Assembly (NCBI RefSeq): GCF_025252405.1
Contig: NZ_CP104307.1
Span: 3,906,001-3,970,000, forward strand
DNA from: Flavobacterium sp. TR2
GTDB taxonomy: Bacteria > Bacteroidota > Bacteroidia > Flavobacteriales > Flavobacteriaceae
DNA length: 64,000 nucleotides
Reading direction: 5' to 3'
How positions within the stretch are numbered: the first letter of the stretch is position 1; the number at the start of each line of letters is the position of its first letter. The translations under genes and the position numbers were made by a program. The notes beneath the pieces were generated by a model. It saw only the letters and a list, made by a program, of their open reading frames with translations, was not told the DNA's origin and made no database searches. Of the stretch, positions 32,515 through 44,046 are shown one piece after another.

Positions 32515-33489
32515 TTAGAAAAGATCGTTTGCAGTGATACTTTTATCGTGTTTTGTATATTCTACAGGACGTTTTGCAAAGAAATCATCTAGACTGTTTG
32601 CAAAAACCTCTTCTTCAAACCAAGTCATTTTTGAATACTCTTCTGGAGAAACATTAAAAATGGTTTCGATATTGATTTGTTTTAAACTTTCGTCAATTCT
32701 AAATTTCATGAAGTTTACCAAATCTTCTTTGTTTATGGTTTCAACTGGTCCATTTTCAAAAATCCAGTCTAAAATATCAGCTTCAACACCAATTGATTCT
32801 TTAACTGTTTCTCTTACCAATTCTAAAGTTTCAGCATCAAAATATTCTGGGAATTCTTCTCTGATTTTATTAATGATGTAAATTCCGCCATTGGCATGAA
32901 TCTGCTCGTCAATAGAAGTCCATGCAATAATGTTGCTCACGTTCTTCATATATCCTTTGAATCTTGTAAATGACAGCAAAATGGCAAACTGGCTGAACAA
33001 TGAAACGTTTTCTATTAAAATGCTAAACAGAATCAGTGAAACCATATATTTTCTGTTGTCCTGAGATTTAGTGTCTTTCAGCACGTTCGAAAGATAATCT
33101 ACACGTCTGCGCACTACAGGAACATCCAATAATCTTTCAAATTCGTCATTATAGCCTAAAACTTCCAACAAACGAGAATAAGCTTCTGAATGTCTGAATT
33201 CGCATTCTGCAAAAGTAGTCCCCAACCCATTGAATTCTGGTTTTGGAAAATGCTCGTATATATTGCCCCAAAAACTTTTTACGGCTACCTCAATCTGTGC
33301 AATTGCCAATAAACTATTTTTAATTGCCGTTTTTTCAGCCAGATTTAAATGCGCGTGAAAGTCTTGCGTATCGGCAGTAAAATCTACTTCGGTGTGTACC
33401 CAGTAAGCTTTATTAATTGCTTCGGTAAATTGCAGAACCTCAGGATATTCAAAAGGTTTATAATTGATTCTTTTATCGAAAATTGACAT
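32515..33489 (-). CDS. nrdB: Class Id-type ribonucleotide reductase, radical-generating small subunit
   Basis: 324 aa. The metal ligands can be counted as E67, E97, H100, E160, E195 and H198, with a tyrosine at 104. A lysine (K71) stands at the place of the first aspartate ligand in the E. coli alignment. This combination matches the Flavobacterium johnsoniae class Id subunit, which uses a superoxide-activated dimanganese cofactor directly and does not form a tyrosyl radical on its Tyr 104. No nrdI-like flavodoxin gene is adjacent, also as in class Id. There is no ATP-cone. It is the first gene of the nrdB-nrdA operon. Confidence 0.95.
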   Translation of the reverse strand: MSIFDKRINYKPFEYPEVLQFTEAINKAYWVHTEVDFTADTQDFHAHLNLAEKTAIKNSLLAIAQIEVAVKSFWGNIYEHFPKPEFNGLGTTFAECEFRHSEAYSRLLEVLGYNDEFERLLDVPVVRRRVDYLSNVLKDTKSQDNRKYMVSLILFSILIENVSLFSQFAILLSFTRFKGYMKNVSNIIAWTSIDEQIHANGGIYIINKIREEFPEYFDAETLELVRETVKESIGVEADILDWIFENGPVETINKEDLVNFMKFRIDESLKQINIETIFNVSPEEYSKMTWFEEEVFANSLDDFFAKRPVEYTKHDKSITANDLF

Positions 33490-33583: not shown

Positions 33584-33632
33584 GCCCACAGTTATTCTTT
33601 TGTCTAGTTTTAGATGTTAAAAATCTGTCCAA

Positions 33633-33866
33633 TTATCAACAGTTTTAAAACTCCAAAAAACCGTGATTGTAGAAATCTTATCAACAGGAAAATATTTTCT
33701 TGTAATTCGCAATGAACTAGCATTTTCACTAAAATTAAAGTCAAGTTATCAACATGAAAAAATGAGCATTTTCGGGTCAGAAGCAAAAGCAGTTATCAAC
33801 ATTCGGCTTTTGAAATTGGAAATTCGGAAAGCATTTTCAATTGAAAAAAAACGCTTCTTATCAATA
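33633..33866 (+). promoter_or_regulatory. Cluster of DnaA-box-like nonamers upstream of nrdB
   Basis: TTATCAACA occurs at 33633, 33678, 33746 and 33795, and TTATCAATA at 33858, all in the same orientation. Each differs from the consensus DnaA box TTATCCACA by one base (two for the last). Four exact copies in 171 bp is far above expectation even in AT-rich DNA. The gap (33490-34256) otherwise holds only AT-rich sequence; a weak 87-codon frame across the cluster is not supported. DnaA control of nrd genes is known in Escherichia coli, so that role is a reasonable inference. Confidence 0.6.
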
Positions 33867-34139: not shown

Positions 34140-34169
34140 TTGGTTTAAGATTATTAATTTTTACATTTG
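34140..34169 (+). promoter_or_regulatory. Promoter of ankyrin-led iron/redox locus
   Basis: TTG (34140-34142), a 19-bp spacer, then TACATTTG (34162-34169): an excellent match to the Bacteroidota consensus. It predicts a leader of about 80 bases before the ATG at 34257. Confidence 0.7.
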
Positions 34170-34256
34170 CTTTTATTTTTATTTATTCTAAATAGAATAG
34201 ATTTTCCAAAGAATAAATTAATCTTGTACAACTCAATAACCATAAATTATCGAAAT

Positions 34257-35747
34257 ATGAAAAAGAATCTTTTTGTTTCTTTTGCATTTGCTGCGACTTT
34301 GTTTGTAAGTGCTCAGCAAAAAAACTCGCTATTGGATGCCGCTTTTTGGAAAAGTGCTCCAACTGTTGAAACGGTTCAGGCGGAAATAGCTAAAGGAAAT
34401 AATCCAGCTGAAGCGAATGCCAATGCGTTTGATGTTACGACTTTAGCTATTAATAATGATGCTCCTTTTGCAACAATCAAATTTTTAGCCGAGCAGCCTG
34501 GAAATTCAATCGCAAAATTGACTCATGATAATCGTATTTACTTGCACTGGGCGGCTTATAGAGGCAACACCGAATTGGTGCAGTATTTAATAGATAAAGG
34601 TTCTGACGTAAACTTTGAAGACAGCCACGGAACAGCTCCTGCTGATTTTGCCGCTTCAAACGGACAATCAAATCCAGCAATGTACGATGCCTTCTTTAAA
34701 GCTGGCCTTAATCCGACAAAAAAATATGCAAACGGTGCCAACCTTTTGCTTTTGGCAATTGCATCTGACAAAGATTTAAAAGCTGCTGAATATTTTTCTA
34801 CAAAAGGAATGTCTTTAAAAGATGTTGACAGTGACGGTAACACTGCTTTTACTTATGCTGCTAGGTCTGGAAATATTGCTCTTTTGAAAAAACTTTTGGA
34901 AAAAGGAATTAAACCGACTGATGCTGCTCTTCTATTTGCTGCGCAAGGAAGCCGAAGAGAAACCAATACTCTTGAAACTTATAAATATTTGGTTGAAGAA
35001 GTAAAAATTAAAGCAGCTGCCCAAAACAAAGCAGGACAAAATGTGCTGCATATTTTGGCAGGAAAACCAAATCAGACAGAAATTATTCAATATTTCTTAG
35101 CGAAAGGAGTTGATGTAAACAAAGCCGATAAAGAAGGAAATACGCCAATAATGGCTGCTGCATCTGCAAAAGAAGCGGGAGTTTTAGAACTTTTCCTTCC
35201 AAAACTTAAAAACATCAATGCTCAAAATCTTAAAGGAGAATCGGCTTTGACATTTGCTGTACGAAACGGATCTCCAGAAGCTGTAAATTTACTTTTGGCT
35301 AAAGGTGCCGACGTAAATGTAAAAGATAAAGACGGAAATAATTTAGGCGTTTATCTAGTACAGTCTTATCGTCCTGCGGGAAGAGAAAAAGCGGCAACCG
35401 ATCCTTTTGATGCAAAAGCAAAAGCACTTCAAGACAAAGGATTAAACTTAGCCGCTCCTCAAAAAGATGGAAACACTTTGTATCATTTAGCCATTACTAA
35501 AAACGATGTTTCGCTTCTTAAAAAAATTACCGATTTAAAAGTAGACATCAACGCAAAAAATAAAGATGGCTTAACGGCTTTGCACAGAGCGGCGATGACT
35601 TCTAAAGATGATGCAATTTTAAAATATTTAGTTGCTGCAGGAGCTAAAAAAGACATCAGCACAGAGTTTGATGAAACGGCTTATGCTCTGGCTAAAGAAA
35701 ATGAACTGCTTACCAAAAATAATATCTCCGTTGAGTTTTTAAAATAA
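34257..35747 (+). CDS. Exported ankyrin-repeat protein
   Basis: 496 aa from the ATG at 34257; a longer frame from 34167 would begin inside the promoter. The signal peptide (MKKNLFVSFAFAATLFVSAQQ) sends it to the periplasm or beyond. At least nine ankyrin repeats follow, with units such as IYLHWAAYRGNTELVQYLIDKG, NTPIMAAASAKEAGVLELFL and SALTFAVRNGSPEAVNLLLAKG. Ankyrin repeats are protein-binding scaffolds. It is the first gene of a same-strand series with DUF2271, PepSY-reductase, ApbE, TonB receptor and DUF4374 genes; it could hold partners of that pathway together. The ankyrin assignment is firm, the role is inference. Confidence 0.9.
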   Translation: MKKNLFVSFAFAATLFVSAQQKNSLLDAAFWKSAPTVETVQAEIAKGNNPAEANANAFDVTTLAINNDAPFATIKFLAEQPGNSIAKLTHDNRIYLHWAAYRGNTELVQYLIDKGSDVNFEDSHGTAPADFAASNGQSNPAMYDAFFKAGLNPTKKYANGANLLLLAIASDKDLKAAEYFSTKGMSLKDVDSDGNTAFTYAARSGNIALLKKLLEKGIKPTDAALLFAAQGSRRETNTLETYKYLVEEVKIKAAAQNKAGQNVLHILAGKPNQTEIIQYFLAKGVDVNKADKEGNTPIMAAASAKEAGVLELFLPKLKNINAQNLKGESALTFAVRNGSPEAVNLLLAKGADVNVKDKDGNNLGVYLVQSYRPAGREKAATDPFDAKAKALQDKGLNLAAPQKDGNTLYHLAITKNDVSLLKKITDLKVDINAKNKDGLTALHRAAMTSKDDAILKYLVAAGAKKDISTEFDETAYALAKENELLTKNNISVEFLK

Positions 35748-35756
35748 CTTTTACTA

Positions 35757-35830
35757 GTTATGAGTTTTGAGTTATGAGTTAAAAATGAAGCTCATAAATA
35801 ATTCAAAACTCATAACTCATAATTATAATT
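35757..35830. repeat. AT-rich inverted repeat (ATGAGTT units)
   Basis: The left arm has repeated TTATGAGTTTTGAG units and the right arm AAAACTCATAACTCAT. It fills most of the gap between the ankyrin and DUF2271 genes and would fold into a long hairpin in the transcript. The same ATGAGTT/ATGAATT unit recurs in tandem at 39793-39848. Confidence 0.65.
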
Positions 35831-35844
35831 TATAACTAAATTTC

Positions 35845-36327
35845 ATGAAATCAATATTAAAAATTGCTCTTACAAGTGCTTTTATCTTTCTAATTTCTTT
35901 CCAATCTCAGGCACAATCGAGCAAATATAAAATCATGCTTCAAATGAATAACTATATGGGAGAAGGTGCTTATATCGTTGTTTCTTTGATTAATGCAAAT
36001 GGAGAATACGAAAAAACGCTTTATGTAATGGGCGATGACAAAAAATGGTACAAATCATTGAAAGAATGGAATAAATTCCACTCAAAGAAAAATGAAGATA
36101 TCAGCGCTAAAACTGGTGCTTCTGTAACTGGAGGGGACCGCAGTGTAACGACAATCGAAATTGAAAATTCTAAAATCAACAAAGGATACAAACTTCGTTT
36201 TGAGTCGGCTGTTGAAGATCAGAAATACTATGTAAGCGATCTTGAAGTTCCGCTTACAACAGAAGGTTTGGCTGAAAAAACAGATGGTAAAGGCTACATC
36301 AAATATGTAAGATTAAACAAAATATAA
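35845..36327 (+). CDS. Periplasmic DUF2271 protein, likely flavinylated
   Basis: 160 aa with a signal peptide (about 1-23). The body is the small beta-rich DUF2271 fold with the KKWYKSLKEWNKFH segment typical of the family. A T90-G91-A92-S93 sequence follows, resembling the [ST]GA[TS] motif to which ApbE attaches FMN through phosphoester linkage; family members often have DxxSGAT there, whereas here the aspartate is five residues before the threonine. The next gene but one encodes ApbE. The protein is therefore a candidate FMN-carrying periplasmic electron shuttle that works with the PepSY-reductase encoded next. The flavinylation is inference from motif and context. Confidence 0.8.
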   Translation: MKSILKIALTSAFIFLISFQSQAQSSKYKIMLQMNNYMGEGAYIVVSLINANGEYEKTLYVMGDDKKWYKSLKEWNKFHSKKNEDISAKTGASVTGGDRSVTTIEIENSKINKGYKLRFESAVEDQKYYVSDLEVPLTTEGLAEKTDGKGYIKYVRLNKI

Positions 36328-36397
36328 TCTTAAGCACATTATTTTTTAACCTTATAATGAGTACAAATTTTATTTTTGTGCTTAGAATTAAAATCTG

Positions 36398-36430
36398 AGC
36401 TTTGTCATCGTTTTAGACTTTGACAAAGCT
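36398..36430. repeat. TTTGTCA/TGACAAA palindrome, family A, copy 2
   Basis: AGCTTTGTCA (36398-36407) pairs with TGACAAAGCT (36421-36430) in the gap before the PepSY-reductase gene. It is a diverged copy of the hairpin at 27244, 60428 and 63034. Just upstream, TATTTTTG (36371-36378) could be a -7 element for the PepSY gene. Confidence 0.6.
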
Positions 36431-36458
36431 TTAAACGTTTTATAATAGAATACACTCA

Positions 36459-38642
36459 ATGACTCTTTCTTTCTGGCGTTACGCACACTTGGCTCTAGCC
36501 TTATTTTCTTCTATTTTTTTGCTTTTGGCTTCGGTAACCGGAATTATTCTGGCAGTCGATGCAGTTCAGGAAAAAACACTTCCGTACAAAGCTGAAAATT
36601 TTAATGAAATAACGCTAGGCGAAACGCTATCAATTTTAAAGAAAGAGTATTCTGAAATTACAGAATTGAGTGTAGATTATAATCAGTTTGTAACGCTTCA
36701 AGCCATTGATGCAGACGGAAACGACATTAAAGCATACATTGATCCAAAAACGGGAAAAGCATTAGGAACTCCAGCAAAGAAAACCGAATTTATAAACTGG
36801 ATTACAAGTTTGCACCGCTCGCTGTTTCTTCATGAAACAGGACGTTTTTTTGTTGGTGTTATCTCTTTTTGTTTATTGCTAATATCCATTTCTGGTTTTG
36901 TATTGGTTTTAAAGAGACAGCGCGGCATCCGAAATTTCTTTTCTAAAATAATCAAAGAATATTTTGCCCAATATTATCATGTGCTTTTAGGAAGATTGGC
37001 TTTAATTCCGATTCTTATTATTGCACTAACAGGAACTTATTTATCGCTGGAAAGATTCAACTTTTTTATGGGTGAAGAAAAAGCAAAACCTGTAAAAACA
37101 GAATTTTCAGAAAAAGCCAAGGCTGCCTCAATTTTCAATGCCACTCTATTGTCTGATGTAAAGAAAATAGAATTTCCTTTTACAGATGATCCAGAAGAAT
37201 ATTACATCATTGAACTAAAAGACCGAGAAGTTGAAGTAAATCAGGTTACAGGAGCTGTAATTTCTGAAAAACGTTCGCCAATGACAGCTCAATTTGCGGC
37301 ATTAAGTCTTGATCTTCACACAGGAAGAATTAACGGAATCTGGGCTGTTATTTTGGCCATTGCCTGCATCAATATTTTGTTCTTTATCTATTCTGGTTTT
37401 GCCATTACTTTAAAAAGAAGGTCAAGCCGAATAAAAAATAAATTTAAAGCAAACGAAAGCACTTTTATACTTTTGGTTGGTTCCGAAAATGGAAGCACTT
37501 TCCGATTTGCCAATGCCATCCAAAAACAATTAATAGATCAAGGTCAGAAAGTTTTTGTCAGCGAATTGAACAAATTTTCTGCCTATCCTAAAGCTGAACA
37601 CATTGTCGTATTTACGTCAACTCACGGTTTGGGAGACGCGCCTTCAAACGGAACGCAATTCAAAGCATTAATTGAAAAACAGAATCAGGAACAGAACATT
37701 AACTTTTCTGTGGTTGGTTTTGGTTCAAAATCATATCCCGATTTTTGCCAGTTTGCTATCGAAATAGATCAGCTTTTAGGAAAACAAAAATGGGCAGATC
37801 GTTATTTAGATCTGAAAACTGTAAATGACAAATCGGCTGTTGAATTTGTAGAATGGGTAAGATTATGGAGTGAAAAAACTGGAATTCCGTTGGCGACCAC
37901 TCCATCTTTATACAACCACGTTCCAAAAGGCCTGCAAAAATTTATGGTTCTCGATAAAACGCCAATTTCTGAAACCGAACATACTTTTATTCTGACTTTA
38001 AAATCTAATGCCAGAACTAAATTTAGCTCTGGCGATTTACTTGCCATTTATCCTGCCAACGATTCTAGAGAACGCCTCTACTCTATCGGAAATCATTCCG
38101 GAAATATTCAGCTGGTTGTAAAATTGCATCCAAACGGATTGGGTTCTGGTTTTTTGAACGCTTTAGAACCTGGGAATGTAATAAAAGCGCAGATTGTTAA
38201 AAATCCTGCTTTTCATCTGCCTAAAAAAGCTCCAAAAGTGGCTTTTGTTTCTAACGGAACAGGAATTGCTCCTTTCTTAGGAATGATCGAACAGAATAAA
38301 ACAAAACAAGAGCTTCATCTCTATAGCGGATTTAGGATGGTGACGCCAACGTTAATGGCTTACAGAAAATTTGCTGACATTATGATCCAGAAAGAGCATC
38401 TGGATAATTTTCATGTGGCGCTATCCCGTGAAGCAGAACATATTTATGTAATGGATTTGATTAAAAGAGATGCTAATTTCTTCGTGAATTTATTGAAAAA
38501 AGATGGTGTCATTATGATTTGCGGTTCACTTGCGATGCAGAAAGATGTAGAGAACATTTTGAGCGAATTGTGCACAGCAAAAGGTTTAAAAACGCTTTCT
38601 GAATATAAAGCCAATAAACAATTTTTAACGGACTGTTATTGA
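36459..38642 (+). CDS. PepSY transmembrane protein fused to flavodoxin and NADPH-flavin reductase
   Basis: 727 aa. Residues about 1-320 are a PepSY-associated membrane region: a first helix (ALALFSSIFLLLASVTGIILAV), a periplasmic PepSY domain, helices near 140, 180 and 300, and conserved histidines in LHRSLFLHETGRF, YYHVLLGRL and LDLHTGR, likely haem ligands. Residues about 330-470 are a flavodoxin domain (LLVGSENGSTFRFA, STHGLGDAPSNG). The rest is a ferredoxin-NADP reductase-type module with ERLYSIGN for FAD and NGTGIAPFLGMI for NADPH. The layout implies electrons move from cytoplasmic NADPH through FAD, FMN and haem to periplasmic acceptors. PepSY proteins are linked to siderophore-iron reduction in other bacteria. 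Partners here are DUF2271, ApbE and a TonB receptor. Confidence 0.9.
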   Translation: MTLSFWRYAHLALALFSSIFLLLASVTGIILAVDAVQEKTLPYKAENFNEITLGETLSILKKEYSEITELSVDYNQFVTLQAIDADGNDIKAYIDPKTGKALGTPAKKTEFINWITSLHRSLFLHETGRFFVGVISFCLLLISISGFVLVLKRQRGIRNFFSKIIKEYFAQYYHVLLGRLALIPILIIALTGTYLSLERFNFFMGEEKAKPVKTEFSEKAKAASIFNATLLSDVKKIEFPFTDDPEEYYIIELKDREVEVNQVTGAVISEKRSPMTAQFAALSLDLHTGRINGIWAVILAIACINILFFIYSGFAITLKRRSSRIKNKFKANESTFILLVGSENGSTFRFANAIQKQLIDQGQKVFVSELNKFSAYPKAEHIVVFTSTHGLGDAPSNGTQFKALIEKQNQEQNINFSVVGFGSKSYPDFCQFAIEIDQLLGKQKWADRYLDLKTVNDKSAVEFVEWVRLWSEKTGIPLATTPSLYNHVPKGLQKFMVLDKTPISETEHTFILTLKSNARTKFSSGDLLAIYPANDSRERLYSIGNHSGNIQLVVKLHPNGLGSGFLNALEPGNVIKAQIVKNPAFHLPKKAPKVAFVSNGTGIAPFLGMIEQNKTKQELHLYSGFRMVTPTLMAYRKFADIMIQKEHLDNFHVALSREAEHIYVMDLIKRDANFFVNLLKKDGVIMICGSLAMQKDVENILSELCTAKGLKTLSEYKANKQFLTDCY

Positions 38643-38699
38643 TTTTGAATTTTAGATTGTTGATTTTAGATTTTGGATTGTGGATTTTGGATTGTCGAT

Positions 38700-38790
38700 T
38701 TATATTTCGGACAAATCCCAGAGGGATGGCATATTTATAGATCAAATTTAATTCAACGCAGCTAAAGCCCCAGCGGGGCGACATAAATGT
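38700..38790. repeat. Dispersed element with GGGATGGCAT and GCCCCAGCGGGGC hairpins, family C
   Basis: Two small palindromes, TCCCAGAGGGA and GCCCCAGCGGGGC, are linked by a GCATATTTATAG segment. The combination looks like a REP-type intergenic repeat. The bases just to the left (38643-38700) are a GATTTTGGATT simple-sequence run. Only one copy is in the window. Confidence 0.5.
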
Positions 38791-38804
38791 TCTAAAAATA
38801 TAAT

Positions 38805-39797
38805 ATGCATAAATTCTTATCCTATAAAATTTCATTGTTTTTTGTAACTGTTTGTTGCTTATCTGCACATTCGCAGGTGCTACGAAAAAGAACCACGCTT
38901 CTAATGGGCGGGCGTTTTGATATTTCGATTGTAGATAAAGATTCGATTTCAGCAGAGCATAATATTAATGAAGTAATTGCAGAAATCACTCGAATTGAAA
39001 ACTTAATCTCCGATTGGAAACCAACTTCTCAGGTTTCTGAAGTCAATCAAAATGCTGGAGTAAAACCAATAAAAGTAGATCGTGAAGTGTTTGAATTGAC
39101 CAAAAGAGCCATTAAACTTTCTGAAATAACAAATGGCGGTTTTGACATTAGCTTTGCGGCAATGGACCGAATCTGGAAATTTGACGGCTCGATGACCGAA
39201 ATGCCTTCGGCAGAAGCCATAAAAAAATCGGTGGAGAAAGTAGGCTATAAAAACATTATTCTAGACAGCACAGAATCGACAATTTTTTTGAAGCTGAAAG
39301 GAATGAAAATTGGTTTTGGCGCTTTAGGAGAAGGCTACGCAACAGATAAATGCCGTGCCATGATGATTGAAAAAGGGGTTCAGGCTGGAATTATAAACGG
39401 TTCTGGAGACATGAGCACTTGGGGAAAACAGCCAAACGGAAAAGACTGGAAAATCGGAATTACAAATCCGTTTAAGCCTGAAAAGATTTTAGCCGCAATT
39501 CCTTTAAAAGAAGGCGCTGTCACGACGTCTGGCAGTTATGAAAAGTTTGTTGTTTTTAACGGAAAACGTTATTCGCATATTATAAATCCTGCAACAGGTT
39601 ATCCTGCCACTGGATTATGCAGCGTAACTGTATTTGGCCCAAATGCAGAAACCGCAAACGGATTAAGCACTTCGATGATGGTTTTAGGCCAGAAAGAAGG
39701 CTTGCTTCTACTTCAGAAATTTCCCGATTACAATTGTGTTCTGATTACTGATAAAGGGAAAATTGTTAAGTCTAAAAACTTTCCTTATAAGTTATGA
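38805..39797 (+). CDS. apbE: FAD:protein FMN transferase (ApbE)
   Basis: 330 aa with a signal peptide-like start (ISLFFVTVCCLSAHSQ). Family motifs: MGGRFDISI near the start, GGFDISFAAMDRIWKF, GFGALGEGYATDK, an NGSGDMSTWG segment, AVTTSGSYEKF and HIINPATGYPATG. ApbE uses FAD to attach FMN to Thr/Ser in [ST]GA[TS] motifs of extracytoplasmic proteins. The likely client is the DUF2271 protein encoded two genes upstream; the PepSY-reductase lies between them. A 480-bp gap full of repeats follows before the TonB receptor gene, so the two halves of the locus may be separately transcribed. Confidence 0.93.
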   Translation: MHKFLSYKISLFFVTVCCLSAHSQVLRKRTTLLMGGRFDISIVDKDSISAEHNINEVIAEITRIENLISDWKPTSQVSEVNQNAGVKPIKVDREVFELTKRAIKLSEITNGGFDISFAAMDRIWKFDGSMTEMPSAEAIKKSVEKVGYKNIILDSTESTIFLKLKGMKIGFGALGEGYATDKCRAMMIEKGVQAGIINGSGDMSTWGKQPNGKDWKIGITNPFKPEKILAAIPLKEGAVTTSGSYEKFVVFNGKRYSHIINPATGYPATGLCSVTVFGPNAETANGLSTSMMVLGQKEGLLLLQKFPDYNCVLITDKGKIVKSKNFPYKL

Positions 39798-39848
39798 ATT
39801 ATGAATTATGAGTTATGAATTATGAGTTATGAATTATGAGTTATGAAT
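39793..39848. repeat. Tandem GAATTATGAGTTAT simple repeat
   Basis: Four to five imperfect copies of a 14-bp unit directly follow apbE. A related AT-rich run of TTCACAATTCA-type units closes the same gap (about 40090-40157). Between them, at 39977-40085, lies further repeat-like DNA (CCCGAAACTTCGGGATCGCTCAGGA) without a gene. Confidence 0.7.
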
Positions 39849-39976
39849 TGCCTCCAGCTTTAGCTGGAGGGATGAAAAAATCTACATATACAGGGCTTTA
39901 GCCAAACTTACTTTCGGCTAAAGCCTTTTCATTTCCTCCAAAAAATAACCTCCAGCTAAAGCTGGAGACAATTCAT
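39843..39976. repeat. Dispersed palindromic element, family B, copy 2
   Basis: Outer arms ATGAATTGCCTCCAGCTTTA...GCTGGAGACAATTCAT flank an inner hairpin GGCTTTAGCCAAA / CGGCTAAAGCC. The left arm itself holds the palindrome CCTCCAGCTTTAGCTGGAGG. The design and most bases match the element at 30580-30701. Confidence 0.8.
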
Positions 39977-40243
39977 AAATAAGATTTGAGGCATTGCTCC
40001 CGATAGCTATAGACATTGCGAGGTTAAACATATTCACTTTCCGCATATCCCTCTCCCGAAACTTCGGGATCGCTCAGGAAGACAAAGTACAAATTCACAA
40101 TTTGCATTTCACAACTCACAACTCACATTTCACAATTCAAAATTCACAATTCAAAAAATCAATATTAAAATAACATTAGAATGCTTCCTGAAATTCTAAT
40201 AATCTTCTAACTCCTTTATTTAGATTAAATTTAAATTATCGTA

Positions 40244-40251
40244 TAAGTTTG
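40244..40251 (+). promoter_or_regulatory. Candidate -7 element of TonB receptor gene
   Basis: TAAGTTTG matches TAnnTTTG, 26 bp before the ATG at 40278. No clear TTG element lies upstream. It suggests the receptor and DUF4374 genes have their own promoter. Confidence 0.55.
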
Positions 40252-40277
40252 CAATCCGATAAATAGTAAACTTACAC

Positions 40278-42677
40278 ATGAGAATTCTTTACGCTCTCTT
40301 TTTTATGATGACTTTTTCTGGCTGGTCTCAAACCGGAAAAATTACCGGAAAAGTCTATTTTACCAATAATGAAACTGCTTTTGGGGCGTCGGTTCAAATT
40401 ACGGGAACAAAAAAATTTGTTGTCGTTGACAATGACGGTCATTTTGAAATAAAAGGTTTGGCTTACGGAAGTTACGATTTGGAAATTTCTTCGATGGAAG
40501 CAAAACCAAAAACAGTAAACATAGCTGTTAATCGTCCGTTGCATCAAATTAATATTGCATTAGAAAAAGTAACAGACCCAAAAGCGCTTAAAGAGGTTAA
40601 AATCCATAAAAAAAGCTTTAAAAAAGATATTATCGAAAAAGGCTTTGCAGTAAATGTGATTGATACGGAAGAAGCTGCAAAAAGAAATCTTCAGACCAAT
40701 GATTTATTGGATCGTTCTGGCGGAGTAAGAATCAGGCAAAATGGAGGTTTGGGTTCTGCCGTAACGTATAATATCAATGGAATGTCTGGAAATGCGATTC
40801 GAATTTTCATTGATGGAGTTCCAATTCAGACTTATGGCGCTTCTTTTAGTTTAAATAGTATTCCGCCAGCGTTAATTGAAAGAATTGAAGTTTTTAAAGG
40901 AGTTGTTCCGGCTTATTTAGCTGATGATTCGCTTGGGGGCGCTATTAATGTGGTTTTGAAAAAAGGAGCAAAAAACAGTTTGAATGCTTCTGTTTCTTAT
41001 GGTTCTTTTAATACTGTCCAATCAAATGTTAATGCTTCTTTTAGAGATAAAAATGGTTTTACTGTAAAAGCAAATGCATTTCAGAATTACTCTGATAATG
41101 ATTATGAAGTTTGGGGAAAATGGGTTTACAATATTGCTCCAAACGGACGTTACGAATACATTCGCGCAAAAAGATTTGAAAGTATGTATCGATCTTTTGG
41201 AGGACGTTTAGAAACTGGTTTCACCAATGTTGATTGGGCAGACAATTTACTTATCAGCTACAACGGCTCGCAAGACTATAATCAGATTCAGCACGGACAA
41301 TATATGACAAAACCTTATAAAGGGCGTTTTAGCGAATCGGCAGCTAATGTTTTTAGTCTGAATTACAGCAAAAAAGACTTTTTAGTTAAAAATCTTGACT
41401 TCTCACTTATTTCGGTTTACAGCCACAGAAACGATGTGATTAACGATACTGTAAAATGGAACTACAACTGGAATGGCGAAAAGGCGCTTGGTCTGTATGG
41501 CCAGCCTATTTTAACCAATACTGGAGCGCAACAAGGCGCACCAACGATCAATCATATGAAGTCGGATATTTTTAATACTCGTGCCGGCTTAAATTATACG
41601 ATTAATGAAAATCATAAGGTTTTGGTGAACGTAATGACTTACATACTTGATCGAAATGATTATGATGAGATGCAGCCAGAAATTACCCGAAACTTTATCA
41701 TTACCCGAGATTTAGCCAAAACAGTTTCTTCCTTTGCTTATGAAATGACGGCATTTCAATCCCGATTGAGAGCCAATCTTTTTGTAAAAAATTACAATTT
41801 GAAAAATGAGCAGAGAGATCCTCAGATTGTAACTGAAAATGGGCAAAAGGTAGTAAAAGAGGTAATTACATCTAAAAGAACAAATTACAATGGATACGGA
41901 ATGGCAGCCTCCTACTCTATTCTTCCAAAAGTAATGGTTATGGCTTCTGGAGAAAAGGCGATCAGACTTCCTTCTGAAAATGAAATATTTGGCAATCCTG
42001 GAGAAAACATCATCAGCAATTCTGGCCTAAAACCTGAGCAGAGCAATAATTTTAATGCCGGCTTGCGTTTTGGTCCGTACGATATCAATCACCACAAATT
42101 TACGGTTTCGGGTAATGCTTTCTGGAGAAATACAGAAGATAAAATTGTCCGCCAAATTAGCGATCGCGTAAATGAAGCCATCCAAGCTTCGCCATTTGTG
42201 AACTTAGGCAAAGCGCAATCGGTTGGTTTTGAAGCTTCATTTCAGTATTCCTACCACAATCGTTTTTTTGCTGGTATGAACCTTTCAAAATTCAATTCGC
42301 TTTTTAAAGACAAATACGATAAAAACGGAAATGTACTTCCGAACTATAACAAACAGCTTCCGAATGAACCTTTCTTTAATTTGAACGCCAATCTTCAGTA
42401 CAATTTCAAAAACGTGATTCAGAGCAAATCAGAACTTAATCTGTATTACTACTGCGGTTATGTAGCGCCATTTTACACTTCGTGGCTCGAAACGGACAGA
42501 ACTACAGCCCAGTTTCCTCAAGATTTAGGCTTGAGCTATATTTTTCCGAATAAACAGTTTACGGTAAGTTTTGACGCCAGAAATGTATTTGACGAACAGG
42601 TTTATGACAATTTTGCGGCCCAAAAACCGGGAAGAGCTTTTTATTTAAAACTCAACTATACCTTAAATAAATTTTAA
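40278..42677 (+). CDS. TonB-dependent outer-membrane receptor, siderophore type
   Basis: 799 aa with a signal peptide ending near WSQ. A carboxypeptidase-regulatory-like domain (about 20-95) precedes the plug (about 120-225, with DLLDRSGGVRIRQNGGLGS and IERIEVFKGVVPAYLADDSLGGAINVV). The barrel fills the rest and ends YLKLNYTLNKF with a terminal aromatic. The size is close to siderophore receptors and lacks the length of SusC. It is followed 37 bp later by a DUF4374 lipoprotein gene. That pair, plus a PepSY protein, corresponds to the XusA-XusB-XusC xenosiderophore system of Bacteroides thetaiotaomicron, so iron-siderophore import is the likely role. Confidence 0.9.
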   Translation: MRILYALFFMMTFSGWSQTGKITGKVYFTNNETAFGASVQITGTKKFVVVDNDGHFEIKGLAYGSYDLEISSMEAKPKTVNIAVNRPLHQINIALEKVTDPKALKEVKIHKKSFKKDIIEKGFAVNVIDTEEAAKRNLQTNDLLDRSGGVRIRQNGGLGSAVTYNINGMSGNAIRIFIDGVPIQTYGASFSLNSIPPALIERIEVFKGVVPAYLADDSLGGAINVVLKKGAKNSLNASVSYGSFNTVQSNVNASFRDKNGFTVKANAFQNYSDNDYEVWGKWVYNIAPNGRYEYIRAKRFESMYRSFGGRLETGFTNVDWADNLLISYNGSQDYNQIQHGQYMTKPYKGRFSESAANVFSLNYSKKDFLVKNLDFSLISVYSHRNDVINDTVKWNYNWNGEKALGLYGQPILTNTGAQQGAPTINHMKSDIFNTRAGLNYTINENHKVLVNVMTYILDRNDYDEMQPEITRNFIITRDLAKTVSSFAYEMTAFQSRLRANLFVKNYNLKNEQRDPQIVTENGQKVVKEVITSKRTNYNGYGMAASYSILPKVMVMASGEKAIRLPSENEIFGNPGENIISNSGLKPEQSNNFNAGLRFGPYDINHHKFTVSGNAFWRNTEDKIVRQISDRVNEAIQASPFVNLGKAQSVGFEASFQYSYHNRFFAGMNLSKFNSLFKDKYDKNGNVLPNYNKQLPNEPFFNLNANLQYNFKNVIQSKSELNLYYYCGYVAPFYTSWLETDRTTAQFPQDLGLSYIFPNKQFTVSFDARNVFDEQVYDNFAAQKPGRAFYLKLNYTLNKF

Positions 42678-42714
42678 TCATTCAATAAATAACTAATTTT
42701 TAAATGCAATAGAG

Positions 42715-44046
42715 ATGAAAAAAAACACATTTAAATTATTTACATCTAGCTTGCTAATGGGTGCGTTTGCACTGACTACAGCTTGCAGCAGCGACGATAA
42801 TAAAAGTGCAGAACCTGTTAACCCAGAAACAGACGGCCGTTGGATTACCGTAGCGGGCGCAGTAATGCAGACAGAACCGGGTGACGGAAATGGCGGAACC
42901 AAAATTTATGCTATAAGCAAAGAAAACGCTATCAATCCTAACTTTTCTGTAAACGTTTACGATCAAGGTTCGCCAGTTCAATCTAGCAGAACAGCTCGTT
43001 TGCAGTCTTCTGTTGATGGAAATACGCTTTTTAACATTACTTACAATGGTGCAAATGGTGGGGAGTTTATGACTTATAAAGTTAACGGAGCCAATAATTT
43101 TGTAGAATCAACTGCAAAAGTTAACATTTCGCAATATGCGGGTGTAACTCCGAGATGGGTAAAACTTTTTGACGGAGATAAAACTGGTATCGCTGTAAAT
43201 GTTACTGCTCCTGTTGTGAATGTAAACGAGGATAAAAGCTATAAATATACGAGAGGAAAAGCAACTGTATTGTCTTTAGACATGAAGAACACTTTGATTT
43301 CTGCTTACAAGCAATACGATATTCCGTTATCTGCTGAAGAAGAAGCGCAAGGACACCACATTTTCCGTTTGGATGCTCCAACATTAAACAAAGCAGGAAA
43401 CAAATTGATTATTGGAACTTGGATGCGTAAAACCAATCTTGCTGATCCGTCAAAAAACGAAAGTTCGTTTACGCGTTTAGGATCTAAATCTGTTGTGGTT
43501 GATTATCCTTCTTTAGAAAATCCTGTGGTAATCACTTCAAAAGTTGCTTTTGGCGATACGAGCGGATACAGAAGTTTCAACAGTTTTGTTGCCACAGACG
43601 GAAACATTTACCAAGCAACGCAAAGAGATGCTCAGAAAGGTTCTTACATTTTAAGAATCAATCAGAACAATCAGTACGATGATAACTATGTATTTAGTTT
43701 AGATACAGCTTTAGGCGTTAAAGGAAGTTATATCGACGCTTGGAGATATGTTGGAAACGGAATTGCTTATGCAGTTTATACTTTTGACGGCACAAACCAA
43801 GGCTATTTGGCAAGATTAGATTTAAATGCAAGAACTGCTCAAAAAGTGGAAGGCATTGATTATGATGCTGATTTAGATTTTGGTCAATATCAAGGTTTTG
43901 TAGTTGATGGAAACAACTTCTACATTGCTGTAACTCCAGTTGGAAAAGACGGTAACATTTATGTAATTGATATTCCTTCTGGAAAAGTTACTAAAGGAGC
44001 AAAATTATTAAACAAGCCTGGAAACCACTACATCGGGGTATTCTAA
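42715..44046 (+). CDS. DUF4374 lipoprotein, XusB-like siderophore-binding candidate
   Basis: 443 aa. The N-terminus has a lipobox ending LTTAC followed by SSDD, so it should be a lipoprotein, with the acidic residues after the cysteine favouring surface export in Bacteroidota. The mature part resembles a beta-propeller of repeated strands (GRWITVAGAVMQ, NTLFNITYNGANGGEF, NIYQATQRDAQKGSYILRI, NIYVIDIPSGKVTKGA), as in the DUF4374 family. XusB of Bacteroides thetaiotaomicron belongs to this family and binds ferric enterobactin beside its TonB receptor. It is cotranscribed with the receptor gene and followed by a strong terminator. Confidence 0.88.
   Translation: MKKNTFKLFTSSLLMGAFALTTACSSDDNKSAEPVNPETDGRWITVAGAVMQTEPGDGNGGTKIYAISKENAINPNFSVNVYDQGSPVQSSRTARLQSSVDGNTLFNITYNGANGGEFMTYKVNGANNFVESTAKVNISQYAGVTPRWVKLFDGDKTGIAVNVTAPVVNVNEDKSYKYTRGKATVLSLDMKNTLISAYKQYDIPLSAEEEAQGHHIFRLDAPTLNKAGNKLIIGTWMRKTNLADPSKNESSFTRLGSKSVVVDYPSLENPVVITSKVAFGDTSGYRSFNSFVATDGNIYQATQRDAQKGSYILRINQNNQYDDNYVFSLDTALGVKGSYIDAWRYVGNGIAYAVYTFDGTNQGYLARLDLNARTAQKVEGIDYDADLDFGQYQGFVVDGNNFYIAVTPVGKDGNIYVIDIPSGKVTKGAKLLNKPGNHYIGVF

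Follow-up and report, generated by a model that had tools for sequence, protein, structure and literature searches.

Four adjoining genes in Flavobacterium sp. TR2 probably encode an iron-repressed periplasmic ferric reductase in which a secreted ankyrin-repeat protein (ANK) positions the electron carrier. They lie on the plus strand of the window, by which we mean the whole 64,000-nucleotide stretch analyzed (contig NZ_CP104307.1, positions 3,906,001 to 3,970,000, of a 5.1-Mb genome), and encode ANK, a DUF2271 protein, a fusion of PepSY_TM with flavodoxin and reductase domains, and ApbE, together referred to here as the core. Two further genes on the same strand, for a TonB-dependent receptor and a lipoprotein resembling XusA and XusB of Bacteroides, complete a six-gene run. 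ANK-DUF2271-PepSY-ApbE forms the fixed part of the locus, with the XusAB-like pair as one among several exchangeable receptor partners of this core. More tentatively, and with slightly less than even confidence, we suggest that ANK is a dedicated, receptor-independent subunit of the Bacteroidota flavin-based periplasmic iron reductase, filling the slot held by PepSY_2 (or DUF4198) in Pseudomonadota and docking the carrier between the membrane hemes and the incoming ligand, with one reductase serving siderophore and heme receptors that are exchanged around it.

To address conservation of the neighborhood, we compared 60 genomes sampled from the same family (our own included), the best 80 named loci from at least 476 confirmed ANK relatives, and 247 Bacteroidota genomes, each at least 90% complete. 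A DUF2271 gene and then a PepSY gene stand directly after full-length ANK in 18 of 18 family relatives. Among the best 80 named loci, with the first ANK of a locus as the reference (in L103, the second), DUF2271 follows ANK directly in all 79 with room for it, PepSY comes next in 77 of 77, and a same-strand ApbE next in 71 of 74; in the exceptions ApbE is nearby on the opposite strand (L101 and L128) or lacking (L117). Genera represented include Flavobacterium, Pedobacter, Adhaeribacter, Chryseosolibacter, Larkinella, Terrimonas, Algoriella, and Paenimyroides, and the nearest named relatives of the source genome in the ANK scan are Flavobacterium species. Full-length ANK, ANK-type DUF2271 (detected with a profile from the core's own family), and the PepSY fusion are found in one identical set of 17 of the 247 genomes, where they adjoin by coordinates. 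The ANK-DUF2271-PepSY neighborhood is not due to chance. A first-pass annotation of this DNA had read the six genes as one system and had proposed conserved co-occurrence as a check; the core bears this out, while the receptor pair varies and adjoins the core in only a minority of loci.

Several candidate matches were set aside in reaching these counts. In the family sample, 20 places reach at least 239 bits for ANK, including our own genome and a further copy cut by the contig end in G015; matches of 51 bits or less, which brought the genomes matched at E 0.001 to 38 of 60, were dropped as other ankyrins. A partial 91-bit ankyrin match in G244, which had made an eighteenth matching genome of the 247, was dropped, as was a 49-bit DUF2271 fragment in G139 around which no core gene was found.

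The flavin electron chain that the first-pass annotation placed in the first half of the run is complete by gene content. The DUF2271 protein (35845..36327, plus strand, 160 amino acids [aa]; PF10029, 130.3 bits) is a predicted periplasmic carrier of flavin mononucleotide (FMN), with its putative attachment site in a TGAS motif at codons 90 to 93 (36112..36123, plus strand). Exactly one [ST]GA[ST] site is present in 98 of 98 homologues, and a DUF2271 protein with this motif was shown to be flavinylated with its cognate ApbE, as described in PMC8238504. The PepSY fusion (36459..38642, plus strand, 727 aa), a predicted transmembrane electron conduit, carries PepSY_TM, Flavodoxin_1, FAD_binding_6, and NAD_binding_1 domains and matches the PepSY-associated transmembrane family PF03929 at 130 bits, against a cut-off of 28.8. 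Its histidines H10, H119, H174, and H287 are invariant in 93 of 93 full-length homologues, and their number equals that for the two heme sites, of two histidines each, reported for a Pseudomonas PepSY protein. The cytoplasmic reductase half is similar to cytochrome P450 reductase and CysJ. Both of these enzymes use NADPH, and by analogy the fusion may do so as well. The fusion ends in Asp-Cys-Tyr (38631-38639), and the terminal Asp-Cys pair is present in 93 of 93 full-length relatives. ApbE (38805..39797, plus strand, 330 aa), an FAD:protein FMN transferase that is probably secreted, scores 267 bits in Pfam and matches ApbE proteins in the PDB down to 3e-46. Its codon 285 (39657-39659) specifies Asn, as in 74 of 74 relatives, where three aligned PDB ApbE proteins have Asp; this Asp is a metal ligand in known ApbE proteins.

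From this gene content we infer a path in which ApbE would attach FMN to DUF2271 at the TGAS site, and electrons from NADPH would pass to flavin adenine dinucleotide (FAD) and then to FMN in the cytoplasmic half of the fusion. They would cross the inner membrane through two hemes held by the four histidines and reach FMN-DUF2271, which would reduce the iron of a ligand brought in by a TonB receptor; the freed Fe(II) may then enter the cell by FeoB. ANK, as a secreted solenoid, would bind DUF2271, and perhaps also the periplasmic part of PepSY, and position the carrier. The receptor unit would be XusAB-like here, with the same core serving beside heme-type or other receptors in relatives.

Much of this mechanism has precedent. 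Clusters of PepSY, DUF2271, and ApbE, their link to TonB genes, and possible extraction of siderophore iron were described in eLife in 2021 (PMC8238504), and those clusters share with ours PepSY_TM (in some with a fused NAD-binding domain), the DUF2271 [ST]GA[ST] motif, ApbE, and sometimes a TonB gene. Their frequent extra secreted gene, and a frequent partner of DUF2271, is DUF4198 according to the same report, whereas here the constant partner is ANK; DUF4198 was not found among the six window genes. In Caulobacter, the Fur-regulated PepSY/DUF2271 operon CCNA_03155-03159, which contains DUF4198, is reported as needed for fitness under ethylenediaminetetraacetic acid (EDTA) (PMC12004947). Expression of DUF2271 and PepSY genes under iron limitation has been described for Alteromonas (PMC7190382), and the structure of a PepSY siderophore reductase is reported as solved. 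The reductive release of iron that the first-pass annotation offered as a natural reading is sound in general but had already been proposed in print (PMC8238504), and the Caulobacter work provides genetic support (PMC12004947).

Pseudomonadota loci share the gene order and the fusion architecture, with fusions of 732 to 739 aa, and differ in having a small PepSY_2 protein (92 to 126 aa) 5' of DUF2271, at the place ANK takes in Bacteroidota. PepSY_2, assigned by Pfam in three plasmid loci, is directly upstream of DUF2271 in Marinobacter and Defluviimonas and one gene further in Rhizobium; the Defluviimonas and Rhizobium plasmid loci have ApbE, and the Marinobacter locus has none listed. In four annotated Pseudomonadota loci the gene tables list no ankyrin within 6 kb, although plasmid gene tables are incomplete and a Cupriavidus record lacked annotated genes, and on a plasmid of Spirosoma, a member of the Bacteroidota, ANK occupies the slot upstream of DUF2271. 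Ankyrins go unmentioned in the main texts of PMC8238504, PMC13142918, and PMC12004947. A literature search that left most subscription papers and bioRxiv preprints outside its scope yielded no paper joining an ankyrin with PepSY and siderophore, with ApbE and flavinyl, or with DUF2271, so that within the literature searched the combination stands as undescribed, as first supposed. Six papers that bring up ankyrins alongside Flavobacterium, siderophores, and iron were judged unrelated. Most of the mechanism, then, is already in print; what is new is the constant ankyrin partner and a fixed reductase separate from exchangeable receptors.

ANK itself (34257..35747, plus strand, 496 aa, about 13 repeats) matches five Pfam ankyrin models above cut-off, the best at 152.6 bits. 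Its AlphaFold model is an ankyrin solenoid with a mean predicted local distance difference test (pLDDT) score of 91.6, and in structure comparison this predicted fold is nearest to ankyrin-1 and DARPins. Solenoids of that type mostly bind proteins. The start is taken as ATG 34257, an upstream TTG at 34167 being judged less likely, and export signals, judged by eye, are present at the N termini of ANK, DUF2271, and ApbE. Invariant residues are concentrated in repeats 2 and 13, and in surface conservation only T89, H90, D91, and R93 of repeat 2 and T469, F471, E473, E481, and N482 of repeat 13 stand out. Second ankyrin copies of the same family were observed in L103 (1126-2640), in tandem, and in L085 (18755-19486), after the XusB-like gene and cut by the end of the stretch.

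A different role for ANK, which we consider unlikely though the best of the alternatives, is that of a periplasmic ligand-binding protein handing the ferric ligand from receptor to reductase, not a protein-protein scaffold. This would suit the loci in which the receptor pair comes directly before ANK (5 of the 80 named loci, and also L042, L043, and L046-L048), as well as the position ANK occupies in place of the small PepSY_2 protein of Pseudomonadota. However, ANK is retained while the receptors vary between XusAB-like, heme-type, and other kinds, the fold predicted for it is an ordinary ankyrin solenoid, and Cys is not conserved in it, with 71 of 98 sequences Cys-free and no column having Cys in more than 9 of 98. 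That ANK persists as receptors are exchanged points to a partner inside the core. We favor ANK as a putative docking scaffold for the carrier.

Exchange of receptors around the core is apparent from a survey of 99 loci (the 18 family relatives, the window locus, and the 80 named loci), covering at most three genes before the core and two after it. A XusA/XusB-like pair adjoins the core in 26 loci, DUF6607, whether or not accompanied by HmuY and a receptor, in 10, and another TonB-type gene is near it in 11; in 10 the sequence ends too early for the context to be judged. HmuY matches are above the Pfam cut-off and those to the heme-receptor model TIGR01785 are below its cut-off, so that "heme-type" is a probable label. 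The loci with DUF6607, a family of unknown function, beside the ANK core are L031, L032, L033, L035, L036, L038, L039, L040, L044, and L045, identified by Pfam in L031 and by similarity in the rest, and most also have HmuY and a receptor. In L081, L083, L084, L104, and L107, a receptor and a single PepSY_TM (by Pfam in L081, the one of the five run) are directly upstream of ANK, giving two PepSY proteins per locus. On a tree of 98 ANK proteins (L085 omitted), made by a quick method and with several long branches, the receptor labels require 17 changes, against a minimum of 3 and a shuffled mean of 40; the labels thus cluster, yet have switched repeatedly.

These data also bear on the view that the six genes are one co-evolved operon for one xenosiderophore, which we regard as improbable. 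The six genes do adjoin on one strand here, with the same order in 15 of the 80 named loci. In L050, however, whose ANK is 95% identical to that of the window, no XusAB-like pair is present at the same place, and among the named loci the pair switches side: it follows the core in 15 and precedes ANK in 5. The lipoprotein family, present in 11 of 247 genomes, is near the core in 6, elsewhere in a core-containing genome in 2, and in a genome without the core in 3, so that 5 of the 11 genomes do not have it near a core. Finally, the pair in the window lies behind a 480-bp gap with promoter-like sequence of its own.

The pair itself holds together: a close homologue of the receptor (E 5.3e-169 or better) is found in 10 of 247 genomes and adjoins the lipoprotein gene in 10 of 10. 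The receptor (40278..42677, plus strand, 799 aa) has Pfam Plug and TonB barrel domains, aligns over residues 6-793 with the XusA chain of B. thetaiotaomicron (9GBC, chain A; E 2.4e-90), and is also similar to an MxcH model, far below that model's cut-off. The sixth protein (42715..44046, plus strand, 443 aa) has a lipoprotein-type N terminus (Cys24-SSDDN, by eye) and is a predicted beta-propeller, probably surface exposed. It was first labeled a DUF4374 lipoprotein, although it matches no Pfam or NCBIfam family, and DUF4374 (PF14298) gives no match even at E 10 in 6 of 6 members tested. Profile-profile comparison finds it clearly similar to DUF4374 as a distant relative, and it is treated as a relative of that family, not as a member. 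Its likeness to XusB comes from profile and fold comparison, the latter showing a XusB-like propeller, with sequence search silent: a search of the PDB returned no XusB and one weak quinoprotein match (E 0.015).

The first-pass annotation had also matched the receptor, the lipoprotein, and PepSY to XusABC. The match stands for the XusAB-like receptor pair and is not supported as stated for PepSY, whose architecture is not that of XusC. As in XusABC of Bacteroides, as described in PMC13142918, a XusA-like receptor and a XusB-fold lipoprotein occur together with a PepSY membrane protein nearby, but the PepSY_TM of the window is fused to a reductase and encoded in the neighboring unit. An ordinary XusABC-type locus, with a TonB receptor, DUF4374, a single PepSY_TM, and a divergent AraC-like gene, lies about 130 kb away in the same genome (L149, 5350-10484); its DUF4374 protein does reach the Pfam family, and its XusC-type PepSY, of about 470 aa, lacks both the flavodoxin and the reductase portions. 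The XusAB-like unit of the window probably imports a ferric siderophore. Since 480 bp separate it from the core and it is preceded by promoter-like and Fur-box-like sequences of its own, it is probably transcribed separately.

Evidence on iron control comes from Fur-box-like palindromes 5' of ANK (ATTTTTATTTATTCTAAAT, 34175..34193), with a similar site in most relatives, and 5' of the receptor (ATTTAGATTAAATTTAAAT, 40218..40236), with similar sites upstream of receptor homologues. The first resembles the Fur box of Riemerella, also of the Flavobacteriales (ATTTAGAATTATTCTAAAT), for which gel shifts on some promoters are described in PMC5609570, and 15 of 18 palindrome letters match upstream of ANK and 17 of 18 upstream of the receptor. 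The initial motif derives from the receptor promoter of the window itself, and many loci are almost identical to one another; the test was repeated with the published 19-letter Riemerella box over the 150 bp 5' of gene starts. A match of 15 or more of the 19 letters was found at 67 of 101 ANK genes, 17 of 29 receptors, 8 of 10 DUF6607 genes, and 5 of 7 heme-type receptors, versus 0 of 96 PepSY, 0 of 98 DUF2271, and 0 of 74 ApbE genes, 1 of 26 lipoprotein genes, and 24 of 751 genes of other kinds; with permuted motifs the share at this level is 0 to 3.5%. At a threshold of 14 of 19 or more, ANK has a site in 71 of 85 cases in which it is not directly behind a receptor pair or DUF6607, versus 2 of 16 in which it is, suggesting that the site is mostly found where a unit begins.

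Across the whole genome, the receptor site is the sole palindrome match with one mismatch. Allowing a second mismatch adds five places. Locations close to FeoB, a ferritin, and two receptors are consistent with iron control, and another is close to a multiheme cytochrome. The count at up to two mismatches is not clearly enriched (6 places versus 4 for a reversed control), and the case for Fur comes from position ahead of genes, not from number. The core may thus be iron repressed through these predicted Fur sites. Elsewhere in the genome, two TonB receptors flank a DUF4198 gene (L138, 7261-13056), and Fur-box-like sites are found close by.

Several observations weigh against an iron reductase with ANK as its subunit. 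The loci are kin by descent, and their counts are not independent trials. No ApbE adjoins the core in the 18 family relatives (in L037 the contig ends inside PepSY). A generally conserved target-facing side of ANK was unsupported overall, the difference of 0.17 being equaled or exceeded in 1103 of 10000 shuffles. In addition to its ANK unit, G001 carries a stand-alone DUF2271 in a heme-type locus without ANK, adjoining DUF6607, a receptor, and HmuY. Lastly, 42 of the 99 loci have no receptor in the genes examined, although L066, L073, and L079 among them have a XusA-like receptor further off, where the stretch ends. The core may work with receptors encoded elsewhere, or on iron that has no ligand.

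An early statement that ANK accompanies every Bacteroidota DUF2271 has been corrected, as the independent Pfam model passes its cut-off in 19 of 247 genomes, with weak matches below it in 13 more. Two genomes, G208 and G247, encode ApbE-DUF2271 fusions of about 505 aa, with no ANK within the 15 kb examined. Together with the second G001 copy, these fusions indicate that ANK goes with the stand-alone DUF2271 paired to a PepSY fusion and not with every DUF2271. A second DUF2271 without ANK or PepSY fusion lies in L130 (8588-10312), adjoining DUF6607 and opposite a receptor and HmuY. That the electrons go to a non-iron target, such as a periplasmic disulfide or repair enzyme, with the iron-receptor link incidental, would suit the 42 loci without a receptor and the many redox tasks of flavinylated proteins described in PMC8238504, but it is very doubtful given the Fur-box-like sites at 71 of the 85 ANK genes not directly behind a receptor pair or DUF6607, the recurrent association with several kinds of iron receptor, and the published iron links of DUF2271 (PMC7190382 and PMC12004947).

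The remaining features of the locus concern its layout. The ORF listing of the window gives six plus-strand open reading frames with ends exactly as first annotated, and Pfam agrees with the ankyrin, DUF2271, PepSY-flavodoxin-reductase, ApbE, and TonB receptor labels. The intergenic gaps are 97, 131, 162, 480, and 37 bp. The 480-bp gap between core and receptor unit (39798..40277) holds a 39-nucleotide imperfect inverted repeat (87%) with 14-nucleotide tandem repeats just 5' of it (39832-39987), perhaps a mobile palindromic element. Upstream of ANK, TACATTTG (34162..34169, plus strand) fits TAnnTTTG, which we take to be the consensus of the Bacteroidota-type -7 promoter element, making it a putative promoter. 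Further out, repeated TTATCAACA words (33627-33763), presumably resembling DnaA boxes, lie 5' of a divergent gene (32515-33489) that by eye is like the small subunit of ribonucleotide reductase.

How iron is stripped from siderophores in the periplasm of Gram-negative bacteria, and by what electron route, is known only in part. Our data suggest that receptors and reductase are traded as separate modules, and a receptor's ligand is therefore not to be read from the reductase that adjoins it. If ANK is a working part of the chain, it would be a periplasmic ankyrin whose partner is concrete and can be tested, and it would mark a receptor-independent reductase recognizable in many genomes of Flavobacterium, Pedobacter, and their relatives.

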